From Pseudomonas iranensis (GTDB lineage Bacteria; Pseudomonadota; Gammaproteobacteria; Pseudomonadales; Pseudomonadaceae): 64,000 nt of DNA. This document shows positions 43,785-50,882 of the stretch, in pieces. The stretch is taken from positions 5,865,501 to 5,929,500 of the forward strand of contig NZ_CP077092.1 of assembly GCF_014268585.2 (NCBI RefSeq), in the 5' to 3' direction. How positions within the stretch are numbered: the stretch's first letter is position 1; every line of letters begins with the position of its first letter. Both the position numbers and the translations under genes were made by a program. The notes under the pieces are model-generated. The model did not search any database, was not told the DNA's origin, and saw only the letters and a program-made list of their open reading frames with translations.

Positions 43785-43864
43785 GCCATCCGCTTTTCAT
43801 CGCAGGCCAGACCGGAGCACGCGTCAACACGCTATACTCCCGCTCTTTTTTCCGGAGCGACGTC

Positions 43865-45061
43865 ATGTCCCTGCCTAGCCTGCGCCTCAAAGCCAACGCC
43901 GACCGTCGCCTGCGCAACGGCCACTTGTGGGTCTACAGCAACGAAATCGACGTGGCCGCCACGCCTCTGCACGGCTTCAAGGCCGGCGATCAGGCGGTGC
44001 TCGAAGCCGCTGGCGGCAAGCCGTTGGGCATCGTCGCCATGAGCCCGAACAACCTGATCTGCGCGCGTCTGCTGTCTCGCGACATCAAACTGGCACTCGA
44101 CAAGTCGCTGCTGGTGCATCGCCTGAATGTCGCACTGTCGTTGCGCGAGCGTCTGTTCGACAAGCCGTTCTATCGTCTGGTCTACGGCGACTCCGACCTC
44201 TTGCCGGGTCTGGTGGTCGATCGTTTCGGCGACATCCTTGTGGTGCAGATCGCCTCGGCGACCATGGAAGCGCATAAAGACGACGTGATCGCCGCGTTGA
44301 CCCAGGTGCTCAAGCCAAGCGGCATCCTGTTCAAGAACGACTCCGCCGCCCGCGACGCCGAAGGCCTCAACCGCTACGTCGAAACCGTGTTCGGTCTGGT
44401 ACCGGAATGGGTCGCGCTGGAAGAAAACGGCGTCAAGTTCGAAGCGCCGGTCATCCAAGGGCAGAAAACCGGCTGGTTCTACGATCACCGCATGAACCGC
44501 GCGCGCCTGGCACCTTACGCCAAGGGCAAACGCGTACTTGATCTCTATAGCTACATCGGTGGCTGGGGCGTGCAGGCCGCTGCGTTCGGCGCCAGTGAAG
44601 TGTTCTGCGTCGACGCCTCTGCATTCGCCCTCGACGGTGTCGAGCGCAACGCTGCACTGAACGGCTTCGCTGACAAGATGACCTGCATCGAAGGCGACGT
44701 CTTCGAAGCGTTGAAGGAACTCAAAGCCAGCGAAGAGCGCTTCGACGTGATCGTTGCCGATCCGCCGGCCTTCATCAAACGCAAGAAAGACATGAAGAAC
44801 GGCGAAGGCGCCTACCGTCGTCTCAACGAGCAAGCCATGCGCCTGCTGACCAAGGACGGCATTCTGGTCAGTGCTTCGTGCTCCATGCACCTGCCGGAAG
44901 ACGATCTGCAGAACATCCTGCTGACCAGCGCCCGTCATCTGGACCGCAACATCCAGATGCTCGAGCGTGGCGGTCAGGGCCCGGATCATCCGGTACATCC
45001 GGCCATCGCTGAAACCCGCTACATCAAAAGCATCACCTGCCGTCTGCTGCCCAACAGCTGA
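43865..45061 (+). CDS. rlmI: RlmI-type 23S rRNA (cytosine-C5)-methyltransferase
   Basis: 398 residues, start MSLPSLRLKANADRRLRNGH at 43865. An N-terminal PUA domain (about 1-75) is followed by an EEHEE region and a SAM methyltransferase domain: VLDLYSYIGGWGVQAAAFGA and the catalytic-loop VIVADPPAFIKRKKD; the acceptor Cys lies in LVSASCSMHL. It should methylate C1962 of 23S rRNA. An intrinsic terminator ends it, marking the left border of the accessory cassette. Confidence 0.93.
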   Translation: MSLPSLRLKANADRRLRNGHLWVYSNEIDVAATPLHGFKAGDQAVLEAAGGKPLGIVAMSPNNLICARLLSRDIKLALDKSLLVHRLNVALSLRERLFDKPFYRLVYGDSDLLPGLVVDRFGDILVVQIASATMEAHKDDVIAALTQVLKPSGILFKNDSAARDAEGLNRYVETVFGLVPEWVALEENGVKFEAPVIQGQKTGWFYDHRMNRARLAPYAKGKRVLDLYSYIGGWGVQAAAFGASEVFCVDASAFALDGVERNAALNGFADKMTCIEGDVFEALKELKASEERFDVIVADPPAFIKRKKDMKNGEGAYRRLNEQAMRLLTKDGILVSASCSMHLPEDDLQNILLTSARHLDRNIQMLERGGQGPDHPVHPAIAETRYIKSITCRLLPNS

Positions 45062-45075
45062 TTGCGCTTGAACAC

Positions 45076-45105
45076 CGGGGAGCCACTGAGCTCCCCGTTT
45101 TTTTT
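45076..45105 (+). terminator. Intrinsic terminator of rlmI
   Basis: CGGGGAGC (45076-45083), loop CACTGA and GCTCCCCG (45090-45097) followed by eight Ts. A strong rho-independent terminator, so the downstream cassette needs its own promoter. Confidence 0.93.
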
Positions 45106-45291
45106 GCGCCCTCCCTCCCCCAGTTTTTACACTCGACATGAGTGCCCCGCCCTCTTCCTACAACTTCTTTCTCGCTGCCTTGCAGGAAGTTTCGTCACGC
45201 CCGTCAATCATGGAAATTAAACCTACACAATAAGGCGCTTGCAAAAGATCACTCCGACAAAATTACTGGAATATTCCTACTTAATATCCGC

Positions 45292-45319
45292 TTGCCAATA
45301 TCCGATTACAAACTAATAT
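45292..45319 (+). promoter_or_regulatory. Candidate sigma-70 promoter of the peptide cassette
   Basis: TTGCCA (45292-45297), a 16-base spacer and TAATAT (45314-45319) in an AT-rich region. Transcription would start near 45326 and give a leader of about 46 bases before the peptide start. The 265 bases from the rlmI terminator to the peptide gene are clearly richer in A+T than the rest of the window and hold no other convincing gene. Confidence 0.65.
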
Positions 45320-45371
45320 GAAGTTGTCGCAACGAAGCGACTCAACTACCAACAAACAAGGAGTTCACATC

Positions 45372-45443
45372 ATGAAAACCATTTATCTCGAAACAGACAA
45401 ACTCGCCAACCTGGCCTTTCTGGTTGCAGCCACCGGCCGCTAA
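45372..45443 (+). CDS. 23-residue peptide, candidate RiPP precursor or leader
   Basis: A 23-codon frame with an AAGGAG site (45358-45363) exactly 8 bases before the ATG. The product begins MKTIYLETDKLANL and ends FLVAATGR: a polar, acidic first half (Tyr5, Glu7, Asp9) and a hydrophobic helix-like second half ending Thr-Gly-Arg. There is no Cys or Ser; Thr at 3, 8 and 21. It is followed by a stem-loop and then by oxidoreductase, oxygenase and exporter genes on the same strand. Size and context resemble short precursors such as PqqA, but the sequence does not match any I know. An attenuation leader is the main alternative; no repeated regulatory codon is seen, which argues against it. Confidence 0.7.
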   Translation: MKTIYLETDKLANLAFLVAATGR

Positions 45444-45450
45444 GTAGCCT

Positions 45451-45493
45451 GGACGCTGGAGAGTGCCGGCACTCTGGCGTCCATCAGACTTTT
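45451..45493 (+). promoter_or_regulatory. Stem-loop between the peptide gene and the dehydrogenase gene
   Basis: GGACGC (45451-45456) pairs with GCGTCC (45477-45482), and AGAGTG (45460-45465) with CACTCT (45470-45475), with a small internal bulge and a CCGG loop. Four Ts follow at 45490-45493. It starts 7 bases after the peptide stop. It may act as a leaky terminator or an RNA-stabilising end so that peptide outnumbers enzyme, as in several peptide clusters; this is inference. Confidence 0.7.
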
Positions 45494-45511
45494 CCTGAGT
45501 GATCTGAACCC

Positions 45512-46585
45512 ATGCATATCAATCCTTTTCTTTTTATATTGCCGCGCCCGCCCGGACAAGTTGTCTGGAACTACAAGAACCATACTCAACATGAACTTGA
45601 TCTTGAATACTCCCATCGCCTCGCCAGCCTTATACACAACCCTGATATATTTGACCCCAACAACATAATAGACAGACAACTTCTGAACGCAGGCATTCTA
45701 ACAACTTCAAAAATAGACAGCCCGGATTGGGGCTGGGATGAACTATCGAAGATCTATCACATCGGCACACAAAATATACCTTGCGCACATACGCCTCGGA
45801 ATATCCACGAGTGGTCCAGGCAATATCTGGCGCACTGCAGCGAAGTGCTGGCAAAGCCGGAACCTGCGAACACCCCGGCGCCGCGATCAGTGCAGCCCTT
45901 GATTACCCTGCCCGTACCGGGCGCCATTAATGATGACAGCCTGACTCAGGCCTTGATGAGGCGCAAAACCTGTCGTTCCTACACCGGTGCCGCGGTGACA
46001 CTGAACGAGGTCGGCACGCTGCTGTATCTGACCCTCGGCTATCTTCCCCCGCGCGCAGACGCCCACGCCGATCCGGTCGCGCCGGGTCTCGAAGCCCGCC
46101 GGAGCTGCCCGTCCGGCGGCGGATTGAACGCCTGTGAGGGATTTGTCCTGGCGCAAAATGTCAGCGGGCTGGAAACCGGCATCTACGCCTACCACCCTGC
46201 CGAACATGCTCTGAGTCGGATCAATGCGCTGCCCGATCCGGAACTGGGCCAATTGCTCGGCGGCCAGCACTTCATCAACAACCTGCCGCTGGGCGTGTTC
46301 ATCACCGCCAGGTTTGACCGTCTCTGGTGGAAGTACGAACATTCGCGCGCCTATCGCATGGCATTCATCGAGGCCGGTCATCTCTCGCAAACCTTTCAAC
46401 TGGTAGCAACGACGCTGGGGCTGAACACCTGGCTGACCGGCGCATTTGCCGACGCACAGGTTGAAACCCTGCTCGGCATCGCGGGCAGCGCCGAGCAACC
46501 GCTGTTCTTTGTCGGTTGCGGCGAAAGCGATGGCCAGGCCATGTGCCAGGAAATGCGTGATCTGCTCAGCGGAGCACAGTCATGA
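45512..46585 (+). CDS. SagB-type FMN-dependent dehydrogenase (nitroreductase fold)
   Basis: 357 residues. Residues 1-125 form an N-terminal accessory region and 140-350 a nitroreductase-fold domain. FMN-contact motifs are visible: RRKTCRSYTG (150-159) and RRSCPSGGGLNACEG (196-210). The Lys-Tyr pair of the SagB/McbC family occurs at K274-Y275 in WWKYEHSRAYR, followed by EAGHLSQTFQLVA. Relatives oxidise azolines to azoles in peptides, but no YcaO cyclodehydratase is nearby and the 23-mer has no Cys or Ser, so another oxidation is likely. The first 115 codons or so are AT-richer than the rest. The ribosome site is weak. It overlaps the next gene by 4 bases. Confidence 0.85.
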   Translation: MHINPFLFILPRPPGQVVWNYKNHTQHELDLEYSHRLASLIHNPDIFDPNNIIDRQLLNAGILTTSKIDSPDWGWDELSKIYHIGTQNIPCAHTPRNIHEWSRQYLAHCSEVLAKPEPANTPAPRSVQPLITLPVPGAINDDSLTQALMRRKTCRSYTGAAVTLNEVGTLLYLTLGYLPPRADAHADPVAPGLEARRSCPSGGGLNACEGFVLAQNVSGLETGIYAYHPAEHALSRINALPDPELGQLLGGQHFINNLPLGVFITARFDRLWWKYEHSRAYRMAFIEAGHLSQTFQLVATTLGLNTWLTGAFADAQVETLLGIAGSAEQPLFFVGCGESDGQAMCQEMRDLLSGAQS

Positions 46586-47559
46586 TTCCCACGGCGATGG
46601 ATGAGAGCGAAGCCCCGGTGTCATGGTCGCTGAAATTCACGCTTCCAGACTGGGAGAGCCGTGCGTCGGTACGCAGCAGTACCCATGACTATCGGTTACC
46701 AAGTGATGTCGAGCAGCAACTGCAGACCCGCTACTGGTTCCCCCCGGCCTTTGTGCCCTATCTGGCGCATCCGGCCATCCAGGCCAAGGGGCGCGAAACC
46801 CTGCACCGCCTCACCGCCAATCATCTGGTGTATTTCCTCGACTACACCACCCTGCTTGAACACCGCATCGTCAACCGCGCGGTGGAAGTCATCGCGCACC
46901 GCGAACTGCCCATCTACATACCGTTACCGATGAAGCATGCAGCACTTCAGCTGTATACCGACGAGGGCTACCACGCGCTGTTTTCCAACCAGATTGCCGA
47001 GCAGATCGCTGCGTATTACAGCATCACCCGGCGTCCGGTCATTCCGAGACGGATCAGCCGCATGAACGCCTTGATCGCGCGGACACCAGAGAAAAACCGC
47101 GCTCTGGCCTGGTTCCTGCTCGGGTTTGTCTCGGAAACCATCATTGCCCGTGAATTGCTGGAAGTGTGCCGCGACACGCTCGTGTCCAGCGTGAACGACA
47201 TGCTGCGTGATCACCTTGCCGACGAAGCCCGGCACAGCCGGTATTTCGCCGAAGCCTTCCATTACTTCTGGATTGCGATGAACAGTCGTCAGCGCCTGTT
47301 CGCCAGCAAGACCCTCGTGGAGATCATTTCCATCTTCTTCGAAGCAGATGAAAGCTGGCTGCAACAAAGCCTGCGTTCGGCCGGTATTGCCGAGATCGAC
47401 GTGATGGAGATTGTCGGCAGCACGGTAACGGTGCAGGCCAACCGCGCTCGTGCACGCGCTGGCTGCAAACCTACTGTGGAGGCCCTGCACAAGGCCGGCT
47501 TCTTTGCATTGCCCCATAACCAGACACTCTTCGCCAAAGCAGGATTGATCGATGGATAA
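46582..47559 (+). CDS. AurF-type diiron oxygenase
   Basis: 325 residues, all-helical ferritin-like fold. The seven ligands of the AurF diiron site are all found with matching spacing: E93 (LLEHR), E128 and H131 (DEGYH), E185 (VSETI), H211, E215 and H218 (HLADEARH). AurF itself oxidises an aromatic amine to a nitro group; relatives carry out N-hydroxylation or other oxidations. The substrate here is unknown, and the peptide-derived product is the obvious candidate. It overlaps its neighbours by 4 and 8 bases, so the three genes are translationally coupled. Confidence 0.88.
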   Translation: MIPTAMDESEAPVSWSLKFTLPDWESRASVRSSTHDYRLPSDVEQQLQTRYWFPPAFVPYLAHPAIQAKGRETLHRLTANHLVYFLDYTTLLEHRIVNRAVEVIAHRELPIYIPLPMKHAALQLYTDEGYHALFSNQIAEQIAAYYSITRRPVIPRRISRMNALIARTPEKNRALAWFLLGFVSETIIARELLEVCRDTLVSSVNDMLRDHLADEARHSRYFAEAFHYFWIAMNSRQRLFASKTLVEIISIFFEADESWLQQSLRSAGIAEIDVMEIVGSTVTVQANRARARAGCKPTVEALHKAGFFALPHNQTLFAKAGLIDG

Positions 47560-48784
47560 ACACAGCCGTGCAACCACCCGCCGACAACAGCGCGGAGCAA
47601 TCAGCCTGCTGCTGGCGATGATCCTGCTTGGCGTGTTTCCGCTGGATGTGCTGCTGCCTTCCTTTCCGGCATTGGCAGCCCACTTTGGCCGATCGTCAAA
47701 CGACATCGCGCTGTCGATCAGTCTGTTTGCCGTGGGCATCGCATTTGCTCAGTTATTGATCGGCCCGTTGTCCGATGTGATCGGGCGCAAAGGTCTGCTG
47801 CTTGCCGGCATGAGCGTGTCGCTGCTCGGCGCACTGGGCTGCGTGCTGAGCAATGACTACACGCTGTTCCTGATTTTCCGGGTGATGCAGGCGCTGGGAT
47901 GTGGTTGCTTCGTGCTGTCCCAGGCACTGGTGCAGGATCTGTTCGAAGGCAACGAGCGTGATCGCCTGCGGATCCTGATGGTCACCGCCACGGGCATCTT
48001 CATTTCGGTATCACCATTGGCGGGCACGTTTCTGCAGGCCACGCTCGGCTGGCGCGGCAGCTTCTGGGTGTTCATCGCCCTGGCCGCCGTGGTTCTGGTG
48101 AAGACGTGGCGGCTGCTCGATAACAGCCGGCCCGTTCAGAATGGGCCACACGTGGGTTTCATAAAGCCCTACAGGTTGGTGCTGAGCAATTTCGAATTCG
48201 TCGGCTGCTGGCTGATTTCCGCCTTCGCTTTCGCCTGCCACTTTTCCTTCATTGTCATTTCCCCGCTGATCTTCATGGAGCAGCTGCAGATGGCACCTTA
48301 CGATTTCGCTTTGATCCTGCTGATCTACGGCGCCGCCTATGTCTTTGGCGGCCTGTTCGCCAGCGTGCTGAATCGGCATATCAATGCGCAACAGCAGATT
48401 TTCACCGGGCTGAGTCTGATCCTGCTCTCGGGGCTGGTGATGCTCTATCTGGCGGCCAGTCATGATCTGTCAGCGGCGACTGTGCTGATTCCGATGCTGA
48501 TCTGCACGGTAGGCACGACCATTTCACGCCCGCCGGCTACCTCACGCGCCATGAGCCTGTTTGCCGAAAACGCCGGCGCATCGGCGTCCGCCGGCAGCAC
48601 CATCATCTTTATCTGTGGCGGGCTGGTCAGCGCCTTGATCAGCCTTGGCCCGGCCAACCTGCAAGCGACACTGGGTTACGGCTTCGTGGTGTTGAGCGGC
48701 GTATCGCTGTTGCTCAACAGCGTGATTGGCCGTCGCGTCAGCAACCTGCGCAGCAATCCGGTGATGCCGGGAGGCGACCACTGA
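47552..48784 (+). CDS. MFS exporter, Bcr/CflA-like (12 membrane segments)
   Basis: 410 residues with about 12 hydrophobic segments. The motif between helices 2 and 3 is GPLSDVIGRKG, and RVMQALGCGCFVLSQALVQD matches the drug:H+ antiporter-1 (Bcr/CflA) group. It probably exports the product of the upstream enzymes and protects the producer. It starts inside the end of the oxygenase gene (8-base overlap). It is the last gene of the cassette; ilvD follows after 256 bases. Confidence 0.88.
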   Translation: MDKHSRATTRRQQRGAISLLLAMILLGVFPLDVLLPSFPALAAHFGRSSNDIALSISLFAVGIAFAQLLIGPLSDVIGRKGLLLAGMSVSLLGALGCVLSNDYTLFLIFRVMQALGCGCFVLSQALVQDLFEGNERDRLRILMVTATGIFISVSPLAGTFLQATLGWRGSFWVFIALAAVVLVKTWRLLDNSRPVQNGPHVGFIKPYRLVLSNFEFVGCWLISAFAFACHFSFIVISPLIFMEQLQMAPYDFALILLIYGAAYVFGGLFASVLNRHINAQQQIFTGLSLILLSGLVMLYLAASHDLSAATVLIPMLICTVGTTISRPPATSRAMSLFAENAGASASAGSTIIFICGGLVSALISLGPANLQATLGYGFVVLSGVSLLLNSVIGRRVSNLRSNPVMPGGDH

Positions 48785-48862
48785 TCCTGCCAGTCGTCAT
48801 CCCGCGTGCCTCTTCAACGGGGGAACAACGCTTTGCGCCATTCCCTCGCGACGCCAGCGGTG

Positions 48863-48868
48863 TAGAAT
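48863..48868 (+). promoter_or_regulatory. Possible -10 box of ilvD
   Basis: TAGAAT lies 173 bases before the ilvD start, with a poor -35 (TTCCCT, 16 bases upstream). The 256-base gap 48785-49040 holds no repeat and no gene; no attenuator peptide rich in branched-chain codons was found. No terminator for the exporter gene is evident, so some readthrough into ilvD is possible. Confidence 0.35.
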
Positions 48869-49040
48869 CGCCTCATTCATCGCCATTCATCCCCGGCGGG
48901 TTTATGAGCTCAGGCTGAGACCAGCGGCGATCCCGCAACGTCATCGGCAGCTTCCGGACACACGGCCATTTTTCGGGTGTTTCAGAGGTCAACAGAAGCT
49001 CACTCCCCTTTAGTACGTGATTAGCCGCCCGGAGTGCTCC

Positions 49041-50882
49041 ATGCCAGATTACCGCTCGAAAACATCCACCCACGGCCGCAACATGGCCGGCGCCCGCGCA
49101 CTGTGGCGCGCCACCGGCATGAAAGATGACGACTTCAAGAAGCCGATCATCGCCATTGCCAACTCGTTCACCCAGTTTGTCCCGGGGCATGTGCACCTGA
49201 AGGACCTGGGTCAACTGGTCGCCCGCGAAATCGAACGCGCCGGTGGCGTGGCCAAGGAATTCAACACCATTGCTGTCGATGACGGCATCGCCATGGGCCA
49301 CGACGGCATGCTGTATTCGCTGCCGAGTCGCGAGATCATCGCCGACTCCGTCGAGTACATGGTCAATGCCCACTGCGCCGACGCCATCGTGTGCATTTCC
49401 AACTGCGACAAGATCACCCCGGGCATGCTGATGGCCGCGCTGCGCCTGAACATCCCGGTGATTTTCGTTTCCGGTGGTCCGATGGAAGCGGGCAAGACCA
49501 AACTCGCTTCCCACGGCCTCGACCTCGTCGACGCCATGGTGATCGCCGCCGACTCCAGCGCTTCTGACGAGAAAGTCGCCGAGTACGAGCGTAGCGCCTG
49601 CCCGACCTGCGGTTCGTGCTCCGGCATGTTCACCGCCAACTCGATGAACTGCCTGACTGAAGCACTGGGTCTGGCCTTGCCGGGCAACGGTTCGACTCTG
49701 GCCACCCACAGCGACCGCGAACAGCTGTTCCTCCAGGCCGGTCGCACCATCGTCGAGCTGTGCAAGCGTTACTACGGCGAGAACGATGACTCCGTGCTGC
49801 CGCGCAACATCGCCAACTTCAAGGCGTTCGAAAACGCGATGATGCTCGACATCGCCATGGGCGGTTCGACCAACACCATCCTGCACTTGCTCGCAGCTGC
49901 CCAGGAAGCCGAGATCGATTTCGACCTGCGCGACATCGACCGTCTCTCGCGCAGCGTGCCGCAGCTGTGCAAAGTCGCGCCGAACATCCAGAAGTACCAC
50001 ATGGAAGACGTGCACCGCGCCGGCGGCATTTTCAGCATCCTCGGTTCGCTGGCCCGTGGCGGCCTGCTGCACACCGACCTGCCGACCGTGCACAGTCGCA
50101 GCATGGAAGAAGCCATCGCCAAGTGGGACATCACCCAGACCAGCGACGAAGCCGTGCATCACTTCTTCAAGGCAGGTCCGGCGGGCATTCCGACCCAGAC
50201 CGCGTTCAGCCAGTCGACCCGCTGGGAAACCCTCGACGACGACCGTGAAAACGGCTGCATCCGCAGCTTCGAGCACGCCTATTCGAAAGAAGGCGGCCTC
50301 GCCGTGCTGTACGGCAATATCGCGCAGGACGGCTGCGTGGTGAAAACCGCCGGGGTTGATGAGTCGATCCACGTCTTCGAAGGCAACGCGAAGATTTTCG
50401 AAAGCCAGGACAGCGCCGTGCGCGGCATCCTCGCTGACGAAGTGAAGGAAGGCGACATCGTCATCATTCGCTACGAAGGTCCGAAAGGCGGCCCTGGCAT
50501 GCAGGAAATGCTCTACCCGACGTCCTACCTGAAATCCAAAGGTCTGGGCAAAGCCTGCGCGCTGCTCACCGACGGGCGTTTCTCCGGCGGCACTTCCGGC
50601 CTGTCGATCGGTCACGCTTCGCCAGAAGCTGCGGCCGGTGGCGCGATCGGTCTGGTGCAGGATGGCGACAAGGTGCTGATCGACATTCCGAACCGCTCGA
50701 TCAACCTGTTGGTCAGCGACGAAGAACTGGCGGCACGCCGCGCCGAGCAGGACAAGAAAGGCTGGAAACCGGTTGAAGTGCGCCCACGCAAAGTGACCAC
50801 CGCGCTCAAGGCCTACGCCCTGCTGGCGACCAGTGCCGACAAGGGTGCTGTGCGCAACAAGGCGATGCTCGACGGGCTGTAA
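49041..50882 (+). CDS. ilvD: Dihydroxy-acid dehydratase
   Basis: 613 residues, start [20 protein letters not shown] with GGAG upstream. Iron-sulfur ligands are in [11 protein letters not shown] and [20 protein letters not shown]; the C-terminal signature [20 protein letters not shown] is intact. It makes the keto acids of valine and isoleucine synthesis. The cysteine set is that of the [4Fe-4S] E. coli-type enzyme. In PAO1 it directly follows rlmI, so the 45292-48784 cassette is an insertion at this junction. Confidence 0.96.

Follow-up and report, generated by a model that had tools for sequence, protein, structure and literature searches.

A 64,000-nucleotide stretch of the Pseudomonas iranensis genome (contig NZ_CP077092.1, positions 5,865,501 to 5,929,500; the whole stretch is called the window) carries a cassette of four forward-strand genes (45372-48784 of the window, 3.4 kb) in the rlmI-ilvD interval of this 6.07-Mb genome. 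The first gene (45372..45443) encodes a peptide of 23 amino acids (aa), MKTIYLETDKLANLAFLVAATGR, which we propose as a precursor peptide on the basis of its open reading frame (ORF), its relatives, a motif scan and the ratio of nonsynonymous to synonymous substitution rates (dN/dS). It is followed by a stem-loop (45450..45483) with the inner motif AGTGCCGGC, and then by the genes for a SagB/ThcOx-like flavin mononucleotide (FMN) oxidase of 357 aa (45512..46585), an AurF-like diiron oxygenase of 325 aa (46582..47559) and a major facilitator superfamily (MFS) transporter (47552..48784). The SagB and AurF genes overlap by ATGA, and the AurF and MFS genes by 8 bp. An AAGGAG ribosome-binding site (45358..45363) precedes the ATG of the short gene with a spacing of 8 nt, and GGAG-type sites stand before most of its relatives. 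The positions and order of the short ORF, the hairpin and the three larger genes are those given in an initial annotation made from the sequence alone. Neither the ORF list nor Pfam revealed a YcaO, lanthionine enzyme, radical SAM enzyme or protease among the cassette genes, as had also been claimed; the single YcaO of the genome is unlinked, far from the cassette, and lies in a 736-aa frame.

The 23-codon gene is coding. Across 70 distinct 23-codon sequences, dN/dS was 0.307 in frame, whereas reading the two alternative frames gave 1.11 and 2.60. The composition of the peptide was assessed on 63 distinct sequences from 87 AurF-type loci, which are 21-26 aa long. Position 4 is I or V, position 6 is L or M, and position 7 is E in 62 of the 63 and Q in one. 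Position 12 is A in 62/63, position 13 is Asn in every one, and position 17 is L in 60/63; positions 15-16 and the tail are variable, and 60/63 peptides end in K or R. Cys, Ser and Thr are absent after residue 11 in 30 peptides and present in 33, and they are absent after residue 8 in 22. A metal-binding peptide was rejected, since position 16 is Phe in 39/63 and Cys in 13/63 distinct peptides. A motif pattern that catches the ANL[AS]FLVA form only, divergent forms being outside its reach, matched once each in 67 of 398 Pseudomonas genomes, and each of the 67 copies is followed on the same strand, after 79-353 bp, by a SagB match; the reversed pattern, used as a control, gave 0 matches.

Roughly one in four of the Pseudomonas genomes examined carries the cassette, as judged by an AurF-like orthologue above 120 bits in 103 of 398 (104 matches, counted from the table). 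With weaker matches at 1e-10 the number of genomes rises to 257, mostly through another AurF-family protein. A SagB profile search recovered 118 of the 398 genomes at E <= 1e-40, including 113 whose best E-value was at most 1e-60. Each of the remaining five has either a remnant (G158) or a match to the catalytic domain in another frame, of 467-655 aa. At the stricter limits (>120 bits for AurF, E <= 1e-60 for SagB), both proteins occur together in 101 genomes, which is 101 of the 103 with AurF, SagB occurs alone in 12, and AurF occurs alone in two (G031 and G168, both decayed). Ninety loci (L003-L092) were taken from the 104 AurF matches, and 88 of them had a SagB match; the other two are an AurF remnant (L089) and a contig edge (L090). 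Loci were also fetched for all 12 SagB-alone genomes; G235 contributed its second SagB as well, G188 its SagB and G158 its remnant. The gene order SagB, AurF, MFS, with a short frame 5' of SagB, was found in the fetched AurF-type loci. A motif-bearing short frame precedes SagB in all 88 SagB-matched loci (87 by script, and by eye in L080, whose SagB is truncated), and a short frame does so in 80/80 loci of a second set, kept from 140 relatives, all labelled Pseudomonas, which overlaps the first set, some contigs agreeing in length and place. The initial annotation had made its reading of a peptide pathway depend on a conserved short frame upstream of enzymes that are not scattered, and both expectations held. 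In four loci (L080, L089, L246 and L248) sagB or aurF is truncated, frame-broken or missing, and these decayed cassettes suggest that some strains lose the pathway.

The SagB-like protein scored over the cut-offs of PF00881 and TIGR03605 (122.9 bits vs 78.4 for the latter). It has a nitroreductase-fold domain with W-K-Y residues that are invariant in SagB-like relatives, and the K-Y motif of the SagB family is intact; cut-off and fold agree with the earlier assignment to the SagB-family FMN dehydrogenases. In a model of a close relative, the N-terminal domain consists of three strands and a helix and aligned over the corresponding part of ThcOx and BmdC, resembling a recognition element (RRE) of the ribosomally synthesized and post-translationally modified peptides (RiPPs). 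Pfam detected no RRE or PqqD family in N-terminal fragments of 100-124 residues from seven SagB proteins, and there was no stand-alone RRE protein among the matches listed by the fold search, which excludes nothing; PqqD was located in the organism's own genome. The best NCBIfam E-value for all six SagB-like proteins scanned was that of TIGR04511, 'putative peptide maturation dehydrogenase', with 168.1 bits here and 122.8-168.1 bits across the six, all below its 240-bit cut-off. The usual partner genes of TIGR04511 are not in the cassette. Separately, SagB-type domains were seen in frames of about 650-710 aa in several Pseudomonas genomes (e.g. G083:C12:68961-69554), and by their length these are possibly of the OS3 type (PMC7726476).

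The AurF-like protein scored over the PF11583 cut-off, and its nearest solved folds are AurF and CmlI, with about 20% identity over the fold. The claim of a complete ligand set was upheld, with E93, E128, H131, E185, H211, E215 and H218 invariant in 23 aligned relatives. Elsewhere, the genome encodes a second AurF-family protein in a 388-aa frame (G000:C1:359290-360042, L002), and many of the 398 Pseudomonas genomes have weak matches of this type. The product of the last gene was over the MFS_1 cut-off and had Bcr/CflA as its best NCBIfam match at 186.0 bits, below the 200.9-bit cut-off of that model. The earlier description of an MFS exporter therefore stands as to family, and export itself is a prediction.

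The hairpin between the short gene and sagB, reported from the start as a stem-loop, folds at 45450-45483 and shows compensating stem changes in relatives. Its consensus has ten pairs in 41 of 79 distinct spacers, picked for the most part among the better-conserved ones, and eight of the ten pairs include a change on both sides that preserves pairing. The inner motif recurs in most relatives; a hairpin is predicted in divergent loci as well, often of other sequence, and in some relatives 3-4 T follow it. Rfam gave no match in 45060-45600, no terminator-like match was scored at this hairpin in the window, and a self-devised 14-base hairpin pattern had no match in the window at <=2 mismatches. 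The hairpin may determine how much precursor is made relative to the enzymes, or it may protect the message.

Related cassettes swap their middle enzymes, which are an AurF-like oxygenase, none, a carbamoyltransferase, or a methyltransferase with a carbamoyltransferase, and keep the peptide, SagB and MFS together. Seven AurF-less cassettes in the rlmI-ilvD interval (L120, L235-L240) have the order peptide-SagB-MFS; their peptides (MKTVILESKELAAFSLIGMPK, MNAIVLESKALAAFALIGMPK, MNAIFLESKALAAFALIGMPK, MAKIKLEHEVSAGHHTMLGTLK, MEKIKLEQAVSAGHHALLGTSK, MEKINLEHKTSVGFHVMLGTSK and MKKVQLEKNLAVHHHAMLSTPK) preserve the start and have A, G or H at position 13. In the carbamoyltransferase type (L241, L242, L246), a 55-58-aa peptide with the motif SNDAY is followed by SagB, which is split over two frames in L246, the carbamoyltransferase and MFS. 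The fourth type (L243-L245) encodes a 33-aa peptide carrying SN[DN]AY (two of the three lengths being counted from an inner start), SagB, a tetratricopeptide repeat (TPR)-methyltransferase, a carbamoyltransferase and an at least partial MFS protein. The start motif M-x-x-[IV]-x-[LIM]-[EQ] is common to the sister types, with the exception of L243, which has Ala at position 4. Beyond this N-terminal motif, no residue is common to the peptides of all architectures, whose lengths range from 21 to 58 aa. L247, the SagB locus of G188, belongs to the AurF type, its AurF and MFS matches being broken, and L248 is a remnant. The C-terminal part of the peptide thus changes in step with the tailoring enzyme, which strengthens the peptide-pathway reading offered at the outset.

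The AurF-less group was placed differently in two SagB trees, both rooted on long outgroup branches of our choosing. In one tree it is split between two positions where the branching among AurF-bearing rows is unresolved (46% of bootstraps unite it in one clade), and in a quicker tree it forms one clade (99 in the Shimodaira-Hasegawa-like approximate likelihood ratio test, SH-aLRT) inside AurF-bearing rows (SH-aLRT 92). AurF was probably lost once, perhaps twice, and position 13 then took three different residues. Asn13 is accordingly suggested as the AurF site.

Relatives outside Pseudomonas were sought in a thin sample of 369 Gammaproteobacteria and 398 Pseudomonadota genomes, two sets sharing genomes, and 12 plasmid records. 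One genome (G799) matched SagB over 6-348 of 359 positions at E <= 1e-25, and no AurF or MFS was found beside that match; in the remaining non-Pseudomonas genomes the match falls on the catalytic domain, starting near position 81 in two cases. Among the best 120 of 499 matches of a protein search, which was not used further, the named organisms are all Pseudomonas. A possible relative outside the Gammaproteobacteria lies on a plasmid of Maritalea (Alphaproteobacteria; L250 5705-8122), where an unannotated 25-aa frame with AAGGAG, MKKVTRTFPNKEKLASFVLDVNGVC, is followed after 59 bp by a SagB gene that overlaps an MFS gene, with no annotated AurF. Past position 4 this frame departs from the start motif, and how it aligns to the Pseudomonas peptides is uncertain. 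The Sinorhizobium and Roseateles plasmid records carry other gene sets (three of the 12 plasmid records were inspected).

We propose, with a probability of about 0.75, that the cassette turns a ribosomal peptide into a small exported product. The N-terminus, SagB and MFS are constant and the C-terminus changes together with the tailoring enzymes; the cassette therefore resembles a RiPP family and is unlike an attenuator. The best reading is a RiPP-like family not yet described, with a SagB/ThcOx-type oxidase at its centre and no YcaO. Because its start is shared while the remainder changes with the enzyme set, the peptide looks, from sequence comparison, like a leader plus core and not like a regulatory leader peptide. 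It is very probably the substrate of the enzymes, and the SagB-like protein probably acts on it. The steps that we infer are leader binding, the site and type of both reactions, trimming and export. Residues 1-7 (M-K-x-I-x-L-E) would be the leader, probably read as a beta-strand by the RRE-like N-terminal domain of the SagB-like protein, whose FMN domain would dehydrogenate the remaining peptide (about residues 8-23). Because many cores are devoid of Cys, Ser and Thr, the finishing of azoles cannot be all that SagB does, and the reaction would more probably oxidise C-C or C-N bonds than convert azolines to azoles. The AurF-like diiron enzyme would oxygenate the peptide before or after the SagB step; that it does so at or beside Asn13 is a tentative proposal. 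Host proteases would then trim the peptide, giving a product that may or may not be smaller than it, and the MFS protein would export this product.

Several points weigh against this proposal. The cassette lacks a leader protease. In azole pathways, the known SagB enzymes act after a YcaO, and the genome has one YcaO elsewhere. The link between AurF and Asn13 comes from one or two losses of AurF, with no replicated events, and depends on the root; Asn is also not exclusive to AurF cassettes, as the peptides of the carbamoyltransferase and TPR-methyltransferase types have it in SN[DN]AY. A one-chain model of peptide and SagB, not used as evidence, gave residues 2-5 as a short strand and 11-18 as a helix with low confidence; docking of the peptide was not seen, and its predicted local distance difference test (pLDDT) score stayed below 50 from residue 5 onward. 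Attenuation, too, would fit the strong hairpin that follows the short gene.

In such an attenuation or ribosome-arrest scheme, which we regard as unlikely, the short ORF would be a regulatory leader peptide, the hairpin a switch, and the enzymes would act on an unrelated small molecule. Some drug-exporter genes have leader peptides of this kind, and the short gene is directly 5' of a strong conserved hairpin with 3-4 T behind it in some relatives. However, the part common to all Pseudomonas architectures is the N-terminus and not the residues near the stop, no single-amino-acid codon run was seen by eye, and the hairpin has no terminator-like match in the window. The attenuator was ruled out as the best explanation, given the shared N-terminus and a length and C-terminus that vary with the tailoring genes although SagB stays.

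Somewhat less improbable, yet still doubtful, is a reading in which the peptide acts as carrier or raw material and a single residue is cut out of it, as happens with PqqA for pyrroloquinoline quinone (PQQ), yielding an amino-acid-derived small molecule and not a peptide. The AurF-type peptides are short enough for this at 21-26 aa, the cassette has no peptidase and no ATP-binding cassette (ABC) transporter, the MFS protein is nearest to Bcr/CflA, which exports small molecules, and the nearest solved folds of the oxygenase, AurF and CmlI, act on small arylamines. A single excised unit needs a common residue, however, and beyond the N-terminal motif the architectures share none; within the AurF type, Asn13 would be the chief candidate. 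Least probable is a plain azole peptide, in which the distant YcaO would make azolines in trans for SagB to oxidise. The intact K-Y motif, the one YcaO gene and the 33/63 peptides with C, S or T after residue 11 fit it, but the YcaO is unlinked in its 736-aa frame, and the azole reading was rejected on account of the 30/63 distinct peptides without these residues after residue 11 (22/63 after residue 8).

The cassette has the pattern of a RiPP system in that a short encoded precursor is linked to enzymes and, judged by sequence pattern, a conserved leader adjoins an enzyme-dependent core, from which L243 departs. It shares with the SagB/ThcOx/McbC azoline oxidases of linear azol(in)e-containing peptide (LAP), cyanobactin and bacillamide pathways the FMN nitroreductase fold, W-K-Y and, with ThcOx and BmdC, the RRE-like N-terminal domain; in contrast to them, it has no YcaO or nonribosomal peptide synthetase (NRPS) partner and many Cys/Ser/Thr-free cores. 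A LAP, or thiazole/oxazole-modified microcin (TOMM), is not indicated, as the YcaO cyclodehydratase is not in the cassette and core Cys, Ser or Thr is not general. AurF and CmlI belong to polyketide synthase (PKS) and NRPS pathways; the cassette enzyme resembles these diiron arylamine oxygenases in fold, ligand positions and Pfam score, and differs in its low identity and its adjoining short peptide gene. The AlbA cyclodipeptide oxidase differs in acting on cyclodipeptides, as a filament and without a leader peptide. The OS3 cluster of Pseudomonas sp. Os17 is likewise a Pseudomonas peptide cluster with a SagB-type protein; it is reported to have genes for an 85-aa precursor, an acetyltransferase, an HEXXH protein, a 650-aa SagB-type protein and efflux, and its authors report no SagA, SagC or SagD homologue (PMC7726476). 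Judged by title and abstract opening, this was the one relevant paper among those found on SagB clusters in Pseudomonas. Its precursor, acetyltransferase and HEXXH genes are not in the present cassette, and 'AurF' is absent from the text of that paper. Loci with predicted short precursors beside a SagB-like nitroreductase have also been described with an ATP-grasp partner (PMC8939145) that the present cassette does not have. Where a Synechococcus paper speaks of SagB, the clusters in question contain YcaO or lanthipeptides.

No report of a SagB, AurF and precursor peptide combination was found in the open-access literature, nor any of an AurF-type diiron oxygenase in a RiPP, the latter literature being represented partly by titles and abstract openings. 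Whether the cassette represents a new RiPP class, in which a ThcOx-like FMN oxidase with its own leader-binding domain is the sole constant enzyme and dehydrogenates non-azoline residues alongside interchangeable tailoring enzymes (AurF-type diiron oxygenase, carbamoyltransferase, methyltransferase), is in our judgement evenly balanced. If so, an oxidase family known for azole finishing would also work alone on peptides, and a well-studied family of diiron N-oxygenases would gain a peptide substrate. The AurF-bearing and AurF-less cassettes are a natural pair for telling the role of each enzyme, and the cassette, being compact and common, is easy to delete or express.

The cassette is flanked upstream by rlmI (43862..45061) and downstream by ilvD (49041..50882), both on the forward strand in the ORF list. 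Among the 60 stretches L033-L092, rlmI was matched in 43, once partially, and ilvD likewise in 43; 40/60 show the cassette with both neighbours. The cassette is probably its own transcription unit because a terminator-like hairpin with eight T, found by pattern scoring on the forward strand, follows rlmI (45076..45097); as a class, such sites are not enriched (4 observed vs 3.7 in shuffles). The promoter proposed in the initial annotation found no support, as a sigma-70 match like that at 45292 is within what chance would give (3 matches in 45060-49050 vs 1.6, standard deviation 1.5, in shuffled sequence). Upstream of the short gene, ACAAGGAG at 45356-45363 resembles the consensus of an RsmA/E binding site, so that Gac/Rsm control is possible.

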